From an uncultured Chthonomonas sp. (GTDB lineage: Bacteria; Armatimonadota; Chthonomonadetes; Chthonomonadales; CAJBBX01): a stretch of DNA of 33,947 nucleotides. The DNA lies in assembly GCA_903885605.1 (NCBI GenBank), contig CAISJD010000034.1, positions 1 to 33,947 on the forward strand. The letters are read 5' to 3'. A program made the translations under genes and the position numbers. The notes beneath the pieces are model-generated. The model had not been told where the DNA came from and searched no databases. It saw only the letters and a program-made list of their open reading frames with translations. Numbering within the stretch: the stretch's first letter is position 1; each line of letters starts with the position of its first letter. Positions 1,907 to 12,974 of this stretch are shown here, piece by piece.

Positions 1907-3289
1907 ATGGACCACGAACTCACCCGCCGCGAACTGGCGGCCTCGGCTGTGGCGGCGGCCGCGGGCCTCGCCGGAGGGGCCGCCGGGCTCGGCGCGGGAC
2001 CCGTCGTCCTCGGGGCCGGGCCGCACCTGCTGCTGGATGACGCGCTGATCGAGAGCTCGCAGGGCCTGGAGCGCGTGGTGACGCCGCCGGATCGGCTGCC
2101 CGAACCCGTGGTCACGGGGCCGGTGGACAAGTGCTTCCAGCCCTACGTCAGCGTGCTGCGCGAGGCCGGCGGCCGCTTCCGCATCTGGTACGGCGTGCCG
2201 GAGAGCGCGTCGCAGTCGCATGTGGCGACGATGACCTCCGCCGACGGCATCCGATGGGAGCGGCCCCACCGCGTGCTCGCCGATCCGGGGCACATCCAGT
2301 TCGGCGTCAGCATCCTCGACGACGGCGCCCGCGAGCGCGACCCGGTGCGGCGCTTCAAGTACGGCTACTGGGACGACGGCGGGCTGCAGATCGCCACGTC
2401 GCCGGACGGCCTCGCCTGGACGCGCATGGCCGGCGGACCCGTGATCCGGCACGACCACGATATCAACAGCATCCACTGGGACCCCATCCGCAAGCGGTAC
2501 ATCGCCCTCGTCTCCAGCTACACCACCGGGCCCACCTGGGCCGGGCAGCGGCGCATCCCCATGCAGAGCGTGAGCGACGACCTGGTCCATTGGCGTGAGC
2601 CGTGGCGGATCATCACGCCGGACGATGAGGACCCCGGCGAGACGCAGTTCTACTGCATGTCCGGGTTGCTGGCGCGTGGCGGGCTGCTGATCGGGCTGGT
2701 GAAGGTGCTGCGCGACGACCTGAAGGTGGACAACGCCCCGCCCGGCGGCTACGGCCTCGGCTACACCACGCTGGCCTGGAGCCGCGACGGCGAGCGCTGG
2801 ACCCGCGACCGGACGCCCTTCATGGACCGCAACGCGCGCGTCGGCGCCTGGGACCACGCCATGACGTGGGGCGACTGCCAGCTACTCGTGGGCGACCGTG
2901 CATACATCTATTATGGGGGCTACGCGCGCGGCCACAAGGTCGAGCGCTTCACCGAGCGGCAGATCGGCCTCGCCCGAATGCCGCGCGACCGCTATGTAGC
3001 CCGGCAGGCAGGCGAGGCCGCAGGAACGCTCCGCACCCCGCTGCTGCTCCCGTCAGGCGCATCCCTGACCGTGAACGCGGCAGTCGACGGCGAACTCACC
3101 GCGTGCCTGCTGGACGCGGCGGGCAAGCCACTCCCCGGCTACACCCACGCGGAGTGCGTCCCGGTGCGCGGCGACGGCGTAGCCCTGCCGCTCCGCTGGC
3201 GCCGCCACACCCGCCTCCCGGCCGGCAAGCCGATGCGGCTTGAGCTGCGCCTGCGCCGCGGCAAGCTCTGGGCGCTGGACATGGCCTGA
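1907..3289 (+). CDS. Tat-exported beta-propeller glycosidase-like protein (GH32/GH43-type fold)
   Basis: The 460-residue protein starts at the ATG at 1907 after an AAGGAG box. The N-terminus carries a twin-arginine-like signal (TRRELAAS followed by a long Ala/Gly hydrophobic stretch to about residue 35). The body has repeated propeller-blade motifs: FRIWYGV, TSADGIRWERP, a DPVRRFKYGYW segment, IATSPDGLAWTR and YIYYGGY. These are characteristic of five-bladed propeller hydrolases related to invertases and many uncharacterised proteins. A beta-sandwich forms the C-terminal 110 residues, as in GH32. The substrate cannot be assigned. The last 22 bases of the coding sequence form part of a 38-bp direct repeat whose second copy lies at 5391-5428, so a cassette has inserted exactly at this gene's end while keeping the stop codon. 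Confidence 0.7.
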   Translation: MDHELTRRELAASAVAAAAGLAGGAAGLGAGPVVLGAGPHLLLDDALIESSQGLERVVTPPDRLPEPVVTGPVDKCFQPYVSVLREAGGRFRIWYGVPESASQSHVATMTSADGIRWERPHRVLADPGHIQFGVSILDDGARERDPVRRFKYGYWDDGGLQIATSPDGLAWTRMAGGPVIRHDHDINSIHWDPIRKRYIALVSSYTTGPTWAGQRRIPMQSVSDDLVHWREPWRIITPDDEDPGETQFYCMSGLLARGGLLIGLVKVLRDDLKVDNAPPGGYGLGYTTLAWSRDGERWTRDRTPFMDRNARVGAWDHAMTWGDCQLLVGDRAYIYYGGYARGHKVERFTERQIGLARMPRDRYVARQAGEAAGTLRTPLLLPSGASLTVNAAVDGELTACLLDAAGKPLPGYTHAECVPVRGDGVALPLRWRRHTRLPAGKPMRLELRLRRGKLWALDMA

Positions 3290-3305
3290 GGCGCGACGCA
3301 GCGCC
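3268..3305 (+). repeat. 38-bp direct repeat, left copy (att-like)
   Basis: This segment matches 5391-5428 at 37 of 38 positions; the mismatch is G at 3290 against A at 5413. It begins CTGGGCGCTGGACATGG and ends CGACGCAGCGCC. It contains the last seven sense codons and the stop of the upstream glycosidase gene. The similarity stops sharply on both sides. The two copies bracket the ATPase/nuclease cassette. Confidence 0.9.
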
Positions 3306-3314
3306 ATTGGTTGT

Positions 3315-3337
3315 CGCCCGTCGCATACCAACGGGCG
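3315..3337 (-). terminator. Hairpin downstream of the nuclease gene
   Basis: CGCCCGT at 3315-3321 pairs with ACGGGCG at 3331-3337 across a 9-base loop. It lies just past the end of the leftward cassette genes. There is no T-run, so it may be only a weak or bidirectional terminator between the cassette and the upstream operon. Confidence 0.35.
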
Positions 3338-3349
3338 GGAGGAGCACCG

Positions 3350-3922
3350 TCAGCCGAGAAGCCTGACGATAGCTATTTCAGTGCCGTCTTGCACTGTCAG
3401 TGTCCGGAGTTCATCTCCAGTGTACGCGGTTGGGGAAACAGAGGTCGGGCGCTTGGACAGCGACCGGGCCTTCTTGAGCACCACGCATCGTGTGATGAAC
3501 TCAGGCGGCTGTTTGTCGCGGGCCCGCTGGATGATCTCGTCCAGGTAGGCTAAGAAGCACTCCGCCCCGAGTATCTGGCGTGATGCGCCCTTTGAGTTGC
3601 CGGATTTCAGTTCGATGTAGATGCGGTAGACGTGGTTCCGGTAACGGCAATGGATCACTGCATCACAGCCCTGATTCCACACGTGACGGGCCTCTTGCCG
3701 GAACAGGTGGGAGTACCGCCCGTGCCCTGCCAGTCCTCTGTCCGGCAGGACGGCAAAGGAGTCCTTACCCAGATGGGTAACTGCAATACTGCGAAGCGTG
3801 GCGTTGGCGCCGTGCTCCTTCAGCGTGATGGACTGGCGATCATCGGCTGATCGAACCAGGACGTTGGCAGTCAGCATCTCGGCCACCATGGCCGCGTACT
3901 CGACGAGGTCAGTCTGCTGCAT
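3350..3922 (-). CDS. PD-(D/E)XK nuclease-like effector paired with an AAA ATPase
   Basis: This 190-residue soluble protein is not assignable to a named family by eye. A PD-(D/E)XK-like core can be read: E77 in a helix (RQEARHVWN), D87 in GCDAVIHC, then a strand ending in YIELKSG with E104 and K106, followed by Q116 in a helix (SRQILGAECFLAYL), the position of the conserved Gln in RecB-like members. This suggests a small metal-dependent DNase. The gene overlaps the 3' end of the upstream ATPase by 14 bases, so the two are co-translated. The layout resembles two-gene ATPase-plus-nuclease antiphage systems such as Septu, but the nuclease here is not HNH. The alternative is a non-catalytic accessory protein with the same fold. 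Confidence 0.6.
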   Translation of the reverse strand: MQQTDLVEYAAMVAEMLTANVLVRSADDRQSITLKEHGANATLRSIAVTHLGKDSFAVLPDRGLAGHGRYSHLFRQEARHVWNQGCDAVIHCRYRNHVYRIYIELKSGNSKGASRQILGAECFLAYLDEIIQRARDKQPPEFITRCVVLKKARSLSKRPTSVSPTAYTGDELRTLTVQDGTEIAIVRLLG

Positions 3923-5318
3923 CGTCGAGGTGGTCCAGTATCTGGTCCTGTCTTGCGTTCATCTCGTTGATTGTTTCATCAAAGCTGAGGAACTCAAAGC
4001 TGGCATCGGGTAAGGGCTGGACTGCCGACAGCACCAGATGCCGACTTCGGCGCTTGGCTTCGGCGTTCCTCTTTACGGACTGCTCACCGGCGACGTACAC
4101 GCGCGCTCTGCCCGCATCGAGCCTCTCATCGGACTTGTAGCCCAGGCGCTCGGCCACCTCGACCTCGGTGCTGCCGAGGAGCAGCATGGTGTTGAGTTCC
4201 TTGGCTATATAGTCGCTGTGTGTGGTGACCAGCACCTTCAGTCCGGCGTTCACCAAGCGGGCCAGCAGACGGGCCATCAGCACCTGGCTAGCCGGATGGA
4301 GGTTCAGCTCCGGCTCATCGATCATCAGGAGGTCGCCGGTTCTCGCTTGGTGGCGCAGGTAGAGCCCGAGGCCGAGAAGGCTCCGCACAGAGCTGGAACT
4401 CTCGTTCAGCGCAAGCTTGGGGCTTCTGCCCGCCGGCTGGAAGTACACCGATCCCCTTGACACGTGGTAGCGGCCGCCAAGCAACTCCTCAAAACCTGTG
4501 AGGAGTTCCAGCATGGCCGTGATCAGCTCTCCCTGAGAGCCCTGCACGGCATCAACCTGATTCATCCGGTCCACTTCGTCGCGGACCGGCAACGGGTACC
4601 TCGGGCTGAACTCAGGAATCAGGATGGAGAGGAGTTGCTTGGGTTCTAGCCGCTTCGAGGTTTCCACGCTGGAGAGGGCCTCGATCAGCCGCGTCCTCGT
4701 GAAGTTCAGCTCGTTCCGGAACGTAGCCGCACCCGTGCGCTCGGTGCTGATCATGACGACCCTAGGCACGACGCCGCTGAATGCAAGCGACTGCACGGCC
4801 GGCAGCAGCATATCGCGCAGGACAGGCTGTGGAATGGCCTTTGGGTCGCCGTCCACAAGGCTGGCCACCAGACTCATCGAACTATGGGCCTTGGTGACAC
4901 TGACCATGGGCGTCGCGTCGGGACGCTGATAGGTGTGGGCAAACTCCCTGCTGACCAAGCCGCCCGGTGGCGGTGCGGCGATGGTTAACTCGGTGGCGTC
5001 AAATCTGCCTTCCTCCGCGGCCAGCACGCCGGCAAGCGCCTTTCGGTACTCCGTAGCGATTCGCGCAAGGTTGTCCTGCCAGGGCGCCAGAATCCGCTCG
5101 CCCAGGTCAATCTCAACACTTCCGGTGTCGGCCAAGCGTGCCGTATCCGCGTCGTCGATCAGCCACGTGGATAGGGCCGGCCACAGTTTTAGAAGACCAT
5201 AGATTGAATAGGCGACGTATGTCTTTCCGGTGTTATTACGTCCACATATAAGTGTAAGATCGCCAATAGCGATGCATGCATCGGTCAACGCGCCCAGATG
5301 GCGGAACTTCAATTCCAT
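3909..5318 (-). CDS. AAA family ATPase (OLD/SMC-like), sensor of a putative defence cassette
   Basis: The 469-residue protein is an ABC/SMC-class ATPase of the kind found in OLD, Septu and related defence systems. It starts MELKFRHLG. Walker A is GRNNTGKT at residues 26-33. A serine-rich signature loop (NESSSSVRSL, about 305-314) precedes Walker B, LLMIDEPELNLHP (330-342), and the H-loop TTHSD (365-369). The central 200 residues between Walker A and the signature are the usual insertion that forms a coiled arm. The 100-residue tail has no TOPRIM motif, so nuclease activity must come from the adjacent PD-(D/E)XK-like protein. A TGGAG box lies 9 bases before the ATG. The gene lies inside the repeat-bounded insertion, immediately upstream of and overlapping its partner. 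Confidence 0.8.
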   Translation of the reverse strand: MELKFRHLGALTDACIAIGDLTLICGRNNTGKTYVAYSIYGLLKLWPALSTWLIDDADTARLADTGSVEIDLGERILAPWQDNLARIATEYRKALAGVLAAEEGRFDATELTIAAPPPGGLVSREFAHTYQRPDATPMVSVTKAHSSMSLVASLVDGDPKAIPQPVLRDMLLPAVQSLAFSGVVPRVVMISTERTGAATFRNELNFTRTRLIEALSSVETSKRLEPKQLLSILIPEFSPRYPLPVRDEVDRMNQVDAVQGSQGELITAMLELLTGFEELLGGRYHVSRGSVYFQPAGRSPKLALNESSSSVRSLLGLGLYLRHQARTGDLLMIDEPELNLHPASQVLMARLLARLVNAGLKVLVTTHSDYIAKELNTMLLLGSTEVEVAERLGYKSDERLDAGRARVYVAGEQSVKRNAEAKRRSRHLVLSAVQPLPDASFEFLSFDETINEMNARQDQILDHLDDAAD

Positions 5319-9167: not shown

Positions 9168-10286
9168 ATGACCTCGGACCCCACGCCCGCCGCCGCCAAG
9201 CCCGCCTTCTCCTGGGAGCGCGACATCGCTCCGGAGGAGGGGCCGCCCATCACGTTCACCGAGGAGGTGCGCTGGGACCGCTGGGACCGCGACTTCGACG
9301 AGGCCGCCTACACGCCGCCGCCGTGGGCCATCGGGCCCTTCGCCAAGTACGCCGGCAATCCGGTCCTGGCCCCCACCGCGGGCGGCTGGGACTGCGGGCG
9401 CTTCGGCGGGGGCGTCCACAACGGCTCCATCCTGCAGGTCGACGGACGTTTCGCCTACGTCTACCGCGGTGAGCGCGAGATGGAGCCCGGAGCCGTGCCC
9501 GGCATGGCCGGCGGCTACATGTGCGACATCGGCCTGGCCCTCAGCGACGACGGCGTGGCCTTCACCAGGGACGAGGAGGCCAGCCCCTTCTTCCGCCTGG
9601 GCCGCGACTCCAAGTACAGCTTCGAGGACGTGAGCTGCGTCCGCTACGGCGGGCTCTACTACCTCTTCTGCAACCGTTGGTTCTGGCCCGATATGGATAA
9701 CCCCGCCACCAGCGGCGCCTTCCTGGCCACGTCGCCGGACCTGCGGACCTGGACCAAGCACGGCCTCTGCTTCCCCGACGCCAAGCGCATCCACCGCAAC
9801 CCGGTCATCGTCCAGACACCCGAGAACGAAGCGGCGAGGCTGGGTTGCGGCTTCGTGATGTACCTGAACGACGGGCTCATCGCCACCAGCGACGACCTGA
9901 TCCACTGGCACTCCCGCGAGGTGGCCGACCCCTGGCCCGGCGGCGAGAACTGCTTCGCCGTGGTCGACTGGGATGAGCGTTACCCCGACAACATCCTCGT
10001 CTTCACCGGCGGTCCCCATTCGGGCCACTTCTACGCCGTGGGCGAGGTGCTGGTAGACCGGAACGAGCCTGACCGCGCAGTGGAGTGGCTACCGAGGCCC
10101 GTGCTGACCGCCGACCCCGCGATCCCGTGGGAGAACGGCCTCACCGCCGAGGAACCCCACAAGCCCATCTCGCGCATGCTCGACTGCATCTTCTTCAACG
10201 GCCTGACGCGCCGCGACGGCAAGTGGTGGGCCTACTACGGCGGTAGCGAGGTCTATACTTGCCTGGCCACCGCGCCGGCGAGGTAA
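9168..10286 (+). CDS. GH130/GH43-like five-bladed beta-propeller protein
   Basis: The start is the ATG at 9168 (MTSDPTPAAAKPAFSWERD), with AAGGA 10 bases upstream and a plausible promoter before that. The 372-residue product lacks a signal peptide. Propeller motifs include FAKYAGNPVLAPTAGGWD near the N-terminus (the opening blade typical of GH130 phosphorylases and GH43-like enzymes), GRFAYVYRGE, DIGLALSDDGVAFTR, FEDVSCVRYGGLYYLFCNR, FLATSPDLRTWTKHG, and a final RRDGKWWAYYGGSEVYTCLA blade. GH130 enzymes phosphorolyse or hydrolyse beta-mannosidic bonds. The overall resemblance supports that clan, but the specificity is unconfirmed. The cytoplasmic location would fit intracellular processing of imported oligosaccharides. 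Confidence 0.7.
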   Translation: MTSDPTPAAAKPAFSWERDIAPEEGPPITFTEEVRWDRWDRDFDEAAYTPPPWAIGPFAKYAGNPVLAPTAGGWDCGRFGGGVHNGSILQVDGRFAYVYRGEREMEPGAVPGMAGGYMCDIGLALSDDGVAFTRDEEASPFFRLGRDSKYSFEDVSCVRYGGLYYLFCNRWFWPDMDNPATSGAFLATSPDLRTWTKHGLCFPDAKRIHRNPVIVQTPENEAARLGCGFVMYLNDGLIATSDDLIHWHSREVADPWPGGENCFAVVDWDERYPDNILVFTGGPHSGHFYAVGEVLVDRNEPDRAVEWLPRPVLTADPAIPWENGLTAEEPHKPISRMLDCIFFNGLTRRDGKWWAYYGGSEVYTCLATAPAR

Positions 10287-10323
10287 CCCGCAGACCGAAC
10301 CTGCACCGGGGGGCTTGGCGACC

Positions 10324-10344
10324 GAGGGGCAGGACTGCCCCCTC
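10324..10344 (+). terminator. Hairpin between the GH130-like and Rpn genes
   Basis: GAGGGGCAG pairs with CTGCCCCCTC across a 2-base spacer (one bulged C), followed by TGTG. It is positioned to end the propeller gene. A -10-like TAGACT for the next gene lies downstream at 10367-10372. Confidence 0.4.
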
Positions 10345-10412
10345 TGTGAGACGCCGCGCGCGCGGGTAGACTGGCCGCATCGTGTCAGCCTGTTACTGCC
10401 GTGGAGGTTCCG

Positions 10413-11453
10413 ATGCCCCATGACCAGTTGTGGAAGCAGTTGCTGGAGACCTTCTTCCGGGAGTTCATGGAGCTCTTCCTCCCGGATGTAGCCGAGCACA
10501 TCGATTTCGACAGCGTCGAGCCGCTCGGAGCCGAGCTCTTCACCGACCTGCCGAAGGGCAGGTTGCGGCGGCCCGACTTCCTGGTGCAGGTCCGCACCCG
10601 CGAAGGCGCCACTGAGATCGTGCTGATCCACGTCGAGGTTCAGGCGCGGCGCCGCAAGGACGTGCCCGCGCGCATGTTCGACTACTACTGCCTGCTGCGG
10701 TTGCGTCGCGAAGTGCCGGTGCTGCCGGTGGTAGTCTATCTGCAACCGGGCGCCGGCGGCATCACGCGGGAGCGCTTCGCGGCGGGCCTCTGGGGCCGCG
10801 AGACATTGCGGTTCGAGTACGACGCGCTCGGATTGCCGGACCTGTCGGCCGAGGAGTACCTGGCGAACCCGTCAGCCCTTGCGCCCGCCCTGAGCGCCCT
10901 CATGCGGGCGCCCGGCATGGACCGCGTGGCTCGCGCCTTCCGCGCCCTGGAGCGCGTAGCCAGGACCGACGTGGACGAGGCCCGGCGCTTCCTGTTGGCC
11001 TACGTGGTAGACCACTACATGAAGCTAACCGACGATGAGGCGGAGGAACTCAAGGCCCTCAGCCAGTCGTCTACAGCAACAGAGGTGAAGCAGATGTTCC
11101 TTTCATTCCAGTCCCGCGCCCACGAGCAGGGCTTGAGCCAGGGCATGCAGCAAGGCTTGAGCCAGGGTATGCAGCAGGGTCTGAGCCAGGGCCTGCAGCA
11201 AGGTCTGAGCCAGGGCCTGCAGCAGGGCTTGAGCCAGGGCATGCAGCAGGGCCTGAGCCAGGGCCTGAGCGCCGGCCGGGCGCATGGAGAGCAGGCCGTG
11301 CTGCTGAGGCTGATGCGGCGCCGCTTCGGTGCGCTGGCCCCGGAGGTCGTTGCCCGCGTCGAGGCCATCCAGGATACCAACCAGCTCGAGGCCCTGGCCG
11401 ATCGCATCCTGGACGCCCGCACCCTCGACGAACTGGGCCTGCCGACGGCTTAG
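10413..11453 (+). CDS. rpn: Rpn-family PD-(D/E)XK nuclease with variable-repeat C-terminus
   Basis: The start is taken as the ATG at 10413, with GTGGAGG at 10401-10407 placed 5 bases upstream; a GTG at 10401 lies inside that box. The 346-residue protein belongs to the recombination-promoting nuclease / PDDEXK transposase-like family. The core D55 (RRPDFLVQV), H73-V-E75-V-Q77 (LIHVEVQ) and a following Tyr-rich helix (MFDYYCLL) are the family's catalytic pattern, in which Gln replaces the usual Lys. Residues 239-286 are a four-residue repeat array (QGLS/QGMQ). A helical tail (LLRLMRRRFGALAPEVVARV and onward) completes it. Known Rpn proteins are toxic DNases involved in phage defence, with an antitoxin made from an internal start; one such start is present here at 11094. 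Confidence 0.85.
   Translation: MPHDQLWKQLLETFFREFMELFLPDVAEHIDFDSVEPLGAELFTDLPKGRLRRPDFLVQVRTREGATEIVLIHVEVQARRRKDVPARMFDYYCLLRLRREVPVLPVVVYLQPGAGGITRERFAAGLWGRETLRFEYDALGLPDLSAEEYLANPSALAPALSALMRAPGMDRVARAFRALERVARTDVDEARRFLLAYVVDHYMKLTDDEAEELKALSQSSTATEVKQMFLSFQSRAHEQGLSQGMQQGLSQGMQQGLSQGLQQGLSQGLQQGLSQGMQQGLSQGLSAGRAHGEQAVLLRLMRRRFGALAPEVVARVEAIQDTNQLEALADRILDARTLDELGLPTA
11081..11096 (+). promoter_or_regulatory. Internal ribosome binding site and start codon within rpn
   Basis: AGAGGTG at 11081-11087 lies 6 bases before an in-frame ATG (11094-11096, Met228 of the full protein). Sequence and spacing match a functional Shine-Dalgarno. The site sits just upstream of the repeat array, where an internal antitoxin start would be expected. 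Confidence 0.55.
11094..11453 (+). CDS. Putative intragenic antitoxin (RpnS-like) from internal start
   Basis: Translation from the internal ATG would give a 119-residue protein identical to the C-terminus of the Rpn nuclease. It would contain the four-residue repeats and the terminal helical segment but none of the catalytic residues. In characterised Rpn loci, small C-terminal products made from internal starts bind and block the full-length nuclease, and their dimer helix contains four-residue repeats of variable number. The arrangement here reproduces that pattern in a distant phylum. The start context is seen in the sequence; expression and antitoxin function are inference. Confidence 0.45.
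   Translation: MFLSFQSRAHEQGLSQGMQQGLSQGMQQGLSQGLQQGLSQGLQQGLSQGMQQGLSQGLSAGRAHGEQAVLLRLMRRRFGALAPEVVARVEAIQDTNQLEALADRILDARTLDELGLPTA
11127..11270 (+). repeat. Six 24-bp tandem repeats in rpn
   Basis: Six consecutive 24-base units encode QGLSQG(M/L)(Q/S), that is twelve four-residue steps. The units differ mainly at silent positions (CAG/CAA, GGC/GGT, TTG/CTG) and at ATG/CTG. Both the nuclease and the internal product contain them. Such arrays are prone to gain or loss of units by slippage. Confidence 0.95.
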
Positions 11454-11457
11454 ACCG

Positions 11458-11480
11458 CGGGCGCCCGCGAACGGCGCCCG
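11458..11480. terminator. Bidirectional hairpin between rpn and the fucosidase
   Basis: CGGGCGCC at 11458-11465 pairs with GGCGCCCG at 11473-11480 around a 7-base loop. It lies 4 bases past the rpn stop and 24 bases past the convergent fucosidase stop. There is no T-run. Confidence 0.5.
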
Positions 11481-11504
11481 TCGGTGCGTGGCAGGCCAAA
11501 CCGG

Positions 11505-12974
11505 CTACGGAGCCTGCGGCTCCAGGAAGAGCCCCATCTCTGAGAGGCAAGGGCAGACGGGCGACTTGGTGACCCGTAGCCGCACCTTCGTGGTGGTGAC
11601 GGGCTTGGCGCGCACCAGCCGGCAGGAGCCGATGGCCGTGCCCTTGGCCAGTTCGACCCAGTCAGAGCCGTCCCAGGTATCGACGGCCCAGTCATCCACC
11701 CGCTGGCCCAGCGGCAGGTACTCGCGCAGGCGCACCACGTTGAAGGTGACCGGCGCCCTGAACTCCAGCACGACGCTGGGCGTCGTTTGATCGTCTTCGG
11801 TTGCCCAGTAGGTGCCGGCCTTGCCGTCCACCAGCTTGTCGGGCCCGAACGCCGAGCCCCGGCTCGGGCCGGTCGCCTTCGCCCGACGCGCCAGGTCCTC
11901 GGCGAAGATGGCCTTCAACCGCTTACCCAGGTCCTCCAGCGAGGCCCGGTCCGTTTCGTGGACGCGGCCGCGCCGGTCCGGCGGCACGTTGAGCAGCATG
12001 ACCGAACCGTGGCCCGCGGAGCCGAAGTAGTGCGACACCAGCTCGGGGCCCGTCTTCACCTTGCCGTCCTCCGAGGCGTGGTAGAACCAGCCGGGGCGGA
12101 TGGAGAAGTCGGTCTCGGCGGGCATCCACCGCTCGCCGTTGCGGGTGCCGTGCCAGAGGTCCTTGATGCCGACGCCCGGCGAGGGCTTGCGGCCCGCCTC
12201 CTCGGCCACGGGGGTGATGGTGGACCAGCAGGGGTCGCCCGTCCAGCCCGACTCGGTGCCCACCCAGCGGATGTCGGGGCCCACATCGCTGAAGATCACG
12301 ATGTTCGGGTCCAACTGGCGGATCAGCGCCCAGGTCGTGGGCCAGTCGTAGTAGCTGGTCGGATCAATCTTCCGCGCCTCGCGGGCGCCGCCGTAGAAGC
12401 CGTCGCCTCCGTTGGCCCCGTCGTGCCACACTTCGCTCACCGGACCATAGGTGGTGATCAGCTCGCGGAGCTGGTTGCGGTAGTACTCGACGTAGCTTGG
12501 GGAGCCGTAGTCGGCCCGGTTGCGGTCCCAGGGCGAGAGGTAGATGCCGAACTTCAGCTTATGGCGCCGGCAGGCGTCACTGATCTCGCGAACGACGTCG
12601 CCCTTGCCGCCCTTCCATGGGCTCTGCTCCACGGAGTGGTCGGTGAACTTGCTGGGCCAGAGGCAGAAGCCGTCATGGTGCTTGCAGACGAGCACGATCT
12701 GCTTCATGCCCGCCACCGCGAACGAACTGACGATCTGCTCGGCGTCGAAGTCGGTGGGGTTGAAGACGCTCGGGCTCTCGTCGCCGAAGCCCCACTCCTT
12801 GTCGGTGAAGGTGTTGGTGGTGAAGTGGATGAAGCCGATGAACTCCATCTGCTGCCAGCGCACCTGCGCGGGGCTGGGCAGGGCGCCATAGGGCGCGGGC
12901 GCGGACGACGGGCCTTCGGCGGCGAGGGTCAGCATAGGTAGCATGGCGGCGATCACTCCCAGTGCGTAGATCAC
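11505..12974 (-). CDS. Exported alpha-L-fucosidase (GH29) with C-terminal discoidin-type domain
   Basis: The start is a GTG at 12974, with AGGAG 7 bases upstream; the protein is 489 residues. Residues 1-19 are a signal peptide (MIYALGVIAAMLPMLTLAA). The GH29 barrel follows, with KHHDGFCLWPS (98-108) and YGPVSEVWHDGANGG (176-190), in which D185 is the expected catalytic nucleophile of this retaining family. From about residue 355 a galactose-binding/F5-8-type-C domain is visible (KLVDGKAGTYWATEDDQTTP, VVRLREYLPLGQRVDDW, VRLRVTKSP). It removes terminal alpha-L-fucose, probably in the periplasm or at the cell surface. It is the second gene of an operon whose first gene, 64 bases upstream, is a sulfatase, which suggests sulfated fucan or fucosylated glycan breakdown. 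Confidence 0.9.
   Translation of the reverse strand: MIYALGVIAAMLPMLTLAAEGPSSAPAPYGALPSPAQVRWQQMEFIGFIHFTTNTFTDKEWGFGDESPSVFNPTDFDAEQIVSSFAVAGMKQIVLVCKHHDGFCLWPSKFTDHSVEQSPWKGGKGDVVREISDACRRHKLKFGIYLSPWDRNRADYGSPSYVEYYRNQLRELITTYGPVSEVWHDGANGGDGFYGGAREARKIDPTSYYDWPTTWALIRQLDPNIVIFSDVGPDIRWVGTESGWTGDPCWSTITPVAEEAGRKPSPGVGIKDLWHGTRNGERWMPAETDFSIRPGWFYHASEDGKVKTGPELVSHYFGSAGHGSVMLLNVPPDRRGRVHETDRASLEDLGKRLKAIFAEDLARRAKATGPSRGSAFGPDKLVDGKAGTYWATEDDQTTPSVVLEFRAPVTFNVVRLREYLPLGQRVDDWAVDTWDGSDWVELAKGTAIGSCRLVRAKPVTTTKVRLRVTKSPVCPCLSEMGLFLEPQAP

Follow-up and report, generated by a model that had tools for sequence, protein, structure and literature searches.

The gene at positions 10413–11453 (plus strand) of the window, by which we mean the whole 33,947-nucleotide stretch of DNA analysed, is probably an Rpn-type L/S toxin–antitoxin locus, whose repeat array would act as a length-variable pairing helix changed mainly by recombination. 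The antitoxin is very probably carried inside the tail of the gene. This kind of system is already known from E. coli, where the Rpn L/S genes contain 4-aa repeats that vary among strains (Zhong et al. 2023; PMC10327210, bioRxiv version), as the first-pass annotation of this DNA had noted. What is new here is a natural pair of copies (A in the window and B elsewhere in the same genome), the reshuffling of the repeat units between them and the difference in array length within one genome. Among the papers listed in literature searches on Rpn repeat variation, none looked closer than PMC10327210, and that study left open how the repeats expand or contract and what drives the process. The A/B pair, together with similar pairs elsewhere in the order, provides natural material on this question.

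Contig C34, which makes up the window, belongs to a 5.6-Mb genome (G000), and two more genomes of the genus (G001 and G002) were used for comparison. The predicted full-length product (RpnL, 346 aa) consists of an Rpn/Transposase_31-like part and a DUF4351 tail. The DUF4351 domain (PF14261) was matched at 11274–11435 (E 1e-11; 45.2 bits, cut-off 25). The N-terminal part weakly resembles Transposase_31/YhgA and TIGR01784, with scores (17.5 and 26 bits, respectively) that lie under the curated cut-offs of 21 and 52.1. In an alignment of 17 sequences that includes the window gene (A1), TIGR01784, the Rpn family, was matched by 15 members (E up to 1e-3, best 6.5e-14), and DUF4351 by 13. The DUF4351 tail and the TIGR01784 matches among the aligned members support the Rpn-like assignment that had been made from the sequence at first reading. 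The same alignment has a candidate PD-(D/E)XK core at 10575–10643 (D55, E75 and then Q77, an ExQ motif). D55 and E75, which we take to be the catalytic residues of this core, are invariant in 17/17 sequences. K-12 RpnE could be aligned with the family over 105 columns, in which its D and ExQ fall on those of the family, and the hhalign values (E 0.0018, probability 15%) make this a weak alignment. A sequence search of solved structures reached no Rpn structure; its one match (E 0.027) was repeat-like and is considered a chance hit. The model of the full-length protein (pLDDT 47) is too poor to display the nuclease fold. The Rpn reading was left unchanged by the single PADLOC match, to C3a178, ‘putative invertase’ (E 1.9e-9, residues 197–264), and by matches to a PHROGs ‘transposase’ family (E 5.7e-8) and one unknown family.

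Matches with an E of 1e-20 or lower occur in 12 of the 26 genomes of the order that are at least 80% complete, and the number of matching stretches in a positive genome ranges from 1 to 13. A search of viral contigs with alignment A1 gave 335 pattern matches and no relative. The plasmid search, performed with the protein of locus L085 and not with that of the window, returned 28 records, each below 60% identity, from genera that we take to be cyanobacterial. By eye, the neighbours of the gene between 8095 and 17331 of the window are amidohydrolase-, glycosidase-, fucosidase-, sulfatase- and sensor-kinase-like, and the region does not have the look of a defence island.

At 11127–11270 (plus strand), the gene contains six in-frame 24-mers coding QGLSQG(M/L)(Q/S). 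These units had been described in the first-pass annotation, and both a direct reading and TRF (array 11125–11264, period 24, 5.8 copies, 88% matches, score 210) confirmed them. TRF also called a period of 12 across 11127–11270. Each 24-mer consists of two alternating 12-mers, and the elementary step, and hence the working unit, is 12 bp: the array is 12 × 12 bp (6 × 24 bp) long, its units are of 4 aa and a glycine occupies each fourth residue. Differences among related arrays amount to 12, 24, 36 or 72 bp. Variation between the units of the window array is mostly synonymous (CAA/CAG, GGC/GGT and TTG/CTG), with an M/L change in addition; the earlier wording ‘third-position drift’ is slightly inexact, TTG/CTG being a first-position change. 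The glycine pattern also gives a match to the FliH glycine repeats of NCBIfam over the stretch with Gly at every fourth residue, but the best score, 45.5 against a curated cut-off of 293, makes this a compositional resemblance.

Because the units are of 12 or 24 bp, they can be gained or lost without a frame shift. A phase-variable ON/OFF switch, which a tandem repeat within a coding gene might bring to mind, is contradicted by this unit size, and we regard it as extremely improbable. The ‘switch’ of the first-pass annotation, taken as a reversible change within one clone, was likewise not supported.

The array begins 33 bp past an internal ATG at 11094 (codon 228), which has a strong ribosome-binding signal, the Shine-Dalgarno (SD)-like GAGGTGA at 11082–11088 (plus strand; spacing 8 to the ATG). 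This ATG opens a predicted intragenic antitoxin of 119 aa (RpnS-like; 11094–11453, plus strand), and the array, lying downstream of it, is therefore common to the full protein and the predicted C-terminal antitoxin. The position of the array in the gene thus bears out the earlier proposal that in-frame gain or loss of units touches both predicted products. As judged from the sequence signal, the ATG lies 12 codons upstream of the first repeat glycine, within the range in E. coli Rpn, where the repeats are 8–20 residues past the internal start (PMC10327210). A scan of 10250–11520 for promoters and terminators found none.

Internal start signals ahead of the array were observed in many of the related genes, although these genes are related by descent and the counts that follow are hence not independent. 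Among 22 genes, 14 carry a start codon with an SD of six or more bases 7–23 codons ahead of the array, and no start with such an SD occurs anywhere else past the first 30 codons. Four of the 14 (L088–L091, in which the usual Met is Trp) rely on another start. The other eight have either nothing ahead of the array (L012, L030, L036, L037, L038 and L084) or an SD of 5 bases (L005 and L029). In 12 held-out genes, the array was found by pattern in 10; five of these have an SD start 8–21 codons upstream and five have none. Held-out L135 has two additional SD start sites away from the array, and the single SD site of held-out L118 could not be placed, since the pattern found no array there. At the aligned position, an SD of at least 6 precedes 10/16 Met codons, as compared with 7/181 other internal Met codons.

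Codon shuffling was rejected as a way to prove that the internal SD is under selection. With synonymous-codon shuffles of each of 20 genes, P ranged from 0.055 to 1.0, the window gene giving 0.41, and was below 0.05 in none of them. The SD is not surprising under shuffling because the conserved Glu-Val codons yield it almost for free. This set leaves out L012 and L037, in which GTA occupies the aligned position, as well as the partial or interrupted L026, L087, L094 and L095; L092, L093 and L096, with no usable frame, are also absent from it.

A single-sequence model of the 119-aa protein (mean pLDDT 84, pTM 0.53) has a helix at residues 7–78 followed by three short helices. The predicted antitoxin would thus hold the array within one long helix, in agreement with the interaction helix proposed in the first-pass annotation. 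In the Rpn system the short form is a three-helix bundle that has a long first helix. A Foldseek search with the short form gave nothing at E up to 0.001, and 7TH0 was absent among the 21 matches listed.

The window gene resembles the E. coli Rpn L/S system in several respects: a predicted nuclease whose C-terminal domain follows an internal start signal, 4-aa repeats that vary between relatives and would lie in the first helix of the short form, standalone short-form copies, a patchy distribution and no terminal inverted repeats seen. It differs in coming from another phylum, in being distant in sequence, in having a function predicted from sequence, and in being one of two near-identical copies of the same genome that are one 24-bp unit apart and have readable segment edges. 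The TAEL spacer of EcoR124I/II (described in PMC10327210) is likewise a 4-aa repeat whose number changes specificity; there, however, the repeat number sets the spacing of the DNA target and not a toxin–antitoxin interface.

By analogy with the published E. coli work, the full-length product would be a toxic PD-(D/E)XK-like nuclease, and translation from the internal start just ahead of the array would make a 119-aa C-terminal antitoxin with the same array that neutralises it. The array would form a 4-aa-repeat helix that pairs the long and short forms in a length-specific manner, and phage defence may be the role of the whole. A change in the number of units would alter both products at once and keep them matched, because both are read from the same DNA. 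In E. coli, addition of one repeat to RpnC abolished its neutralisation by the unchanged short form (PMC10327210), and it is on this experiment that the allele-specific matching of toxin and antitoxin, as proposed in the first-pass annotation, would rest for the window gene.

The number of units varies among relatives. When eight related between-genome gene pairs were aligned, the array differed in six, by 4, 4, 8, 8, 12 and 24 aa, and outside the arrays there was one internal indel of 1 aa, in addition to differences at the gene ends; the flanks indicate a shared position well for five of these pairs, partly for L085/L086 and L088/L091, and over 64 bp only for L089/L090. The variability anticipated at first reading was thus found in place of a constant unit number.

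Copy B is located where contigs C89 and C137 end. In G002 the flanks of these two ends are found on one contig, 1.76 kb from each other, so that they probably border a single place. The segment common to A and B extends over 10352–11461 (plus strand), that is, the whole gene with a further 61 bp before it and 8 bp after it, and outside it the flanks diverge sharply. The assembly breaks within copy B, and the part that corresponds to window positions 10479–11036 is missing from the assembled ends. In G000, contig ends fall within such genes ten times, which is what near-identical copies that interrupt an assembly would produce. The array of copy B has five units as against six in the window, and is 24 bp shorter. 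All of its 12-mers (10/10) are present in the A array, in a different order. Outside the array, A and B differ at 2 of the 408 comparable bases; inside it there are at least 6 mismatches in 120 (Fisher P 0.002, with 407 as the test input). In simulation, six random synonymous changes all gave A units with a frequency of 5e-5, or 9.5e-4 with transitions only, figures to be read with the caveat that one of the six real A/B changes is not synonymous.

Recombination or conversion among repeat variants fits the A/B difference in sequence better than slippage alone, because copy B combines the loss of a unit with a reordering of existing 12-mer variants. For this reason the slippage named in the first-pass annotation does not appear to be the best reading. 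Plain replication slippage would be neutral, the length drifting without matching of anything. A 12–24 bp repeat of high identity that changes by whole units is what it would act upon, but removing units from A does not by itself produce B, as at least six further bases differ and each resulting 12-mer is an A unit; we consider slippage of this kind rather unlikely as the whole account. Under the recombination reading, the unit number would shift in 12-bp steps by unequal exchange or conversion among the repeats and between copies, with slippage as a possible contributor.

It could also be argued that the five-unit array is chimeric and that the arrays of A and B are truly identical. At 144 bp, the array comes close to the assembly word length; elsewhere in G000, two contig ends share an overlap of exactly 127 bp, and the break in copy B falls within the gene. 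Against an assembly artefact, other genomes show the same kind of variation at shared positions in genes that are not broken, as do E. coli records of complete-genome level, and we therefore hold an artefact to be very unlikely.

The site of the window copy is empty in G001, where 51 bp separate the flanking matches, compared with 1,223 bp for the window; in G002 the site spans 1,254 bp with no match listed by the protein search. On these grounds, the window copy probably represents the gain of a gene at this site. The empty site in G001 is too diverged for a target-site duplication to be judged. Terminal inverted repeats, as expected of an insertion sequence or transposon, were looked for, and no inverted pair linked the two edges of 10352–11461. 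At another place, common to all three species of the genus (L058/L039), the Rpn gene on contig C115 of G002 has an in-frame stop near its start and the G000 copy is without its 5′ part.

Array lengths were also compared by a script over loci from 12 genomes (1 to 18 loci each; 68 rows, chance GxxxG matches included), taking pairs with at least 85% flank identity. Arrays differ in 6/6 within-genome pairs of separate genes (A/B, C70/C32, G001 C84/C138 and three from one G005 trio) and in 5/10 complete between-genome pairs; an eleventh between-genome row was dropped, L047 being cut by a contig end. This contrast is suggestive only (one-sided Fisher P 0.058; P 0.041 for 7/7 with a linked standalone copy counted, and 0.084 for 5/5), as the pairs are not independent, contig ends truncate several members and an assembler would more readily collapse identical arrays, which biases toward difference. 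Arrays also differ in two extra within-genome pairs, both cut by contig ends and outside the list of the script: C91/C131 in G005 (by 12 bp) and F/C in G000 (by 36 bp). A BLAST-listed pair in G006 (C21/C3) was dropped; its matching stretch lies outside the Rpn matches.

These data raise the possibility that array length acts as an address, co-resident near-identical Rpn toxins being held at unequal lengths so that each answers to its own antitoxin. Unequal lengths would be kept because equal lengths would permit cross-neutralisation between the copies. We put this forward tentatively, as an idea that is more probably wrong than right. The within-genome pairs, all six of which differ as against half of those between genomes, speak for it, as do the two pairs cut by contig ends, which differ too, and the escape of RpnC with one added repeat from the unchanged short form (PMC10327210). 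Speaking against it are the Fisher P value, the contribution of half of the pairs by one trio, the contig-end cuts, the assembly bias described above and the linked standalone copies, which are equal in length on contig C28 of G000 and unequal in G020. A further part of the idea, that new copies become safe independent modules through one or two 12-bp recombination steps, is similarly doubtful. If true in finished genomes, unequal co-resident lengths would explain how many self-neutralising toxin copies exist without cross-talk.

The standalone C-terminal copies bear on matching as well. On C28 (L052, about 3260–4517), a full-length Rpn gene has behind it a standalone copy of its C-terminal part that shares its SD, ATG and array length, a copy that also speaks for the internal start. 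In G020 (L129) the full-length gene has 11 units and the standalone copy behind it 13, so that the array length differs from that of the neighbour in one of the two linked cases in these genomes. In E. coli, a standalone short-form copy follows rpnE (PMC10327210), and we observed that the two arrays are unequal, in both directions, in 13/13 genomes (L097–L109: K-12 and 12 among the 60 records listed of 5371 with a match, chosen for having a standalone copy and covering 7 distinct length pairs, with RpnE of K-12 annotated as inactive). Equal length of linked standalone antitoxins was thus rejected as support for allele matching, and such antitoxins are therefore not simply length-matched spares. 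The inequality in E. coli suggests either that a naive matching rule does not hold or that the standalone copies serve another partner.

Concerted evolution is possible at the places designated D and E, whose flanks match between species. Over 143 mid-gene bases, contigs C50 and C3 of G001 differ at 1 position, and contig C9 of G000 differs from them at 13 and 14; concerted evolution at D and E remains a lead, as the available G000 sequence is short. Conversion of the toxin part is possible at two Rpn places whose flanks match in two species, represented by L053–L056 (G001 C50, C3, C138 and C84) and by L043 and L044 (G000 C97 and C71). At these places in G001, the 5′ parts of the genes are near-identical and the 3′ differences fall mostly in the last ∼85 bp, with some just past the array.
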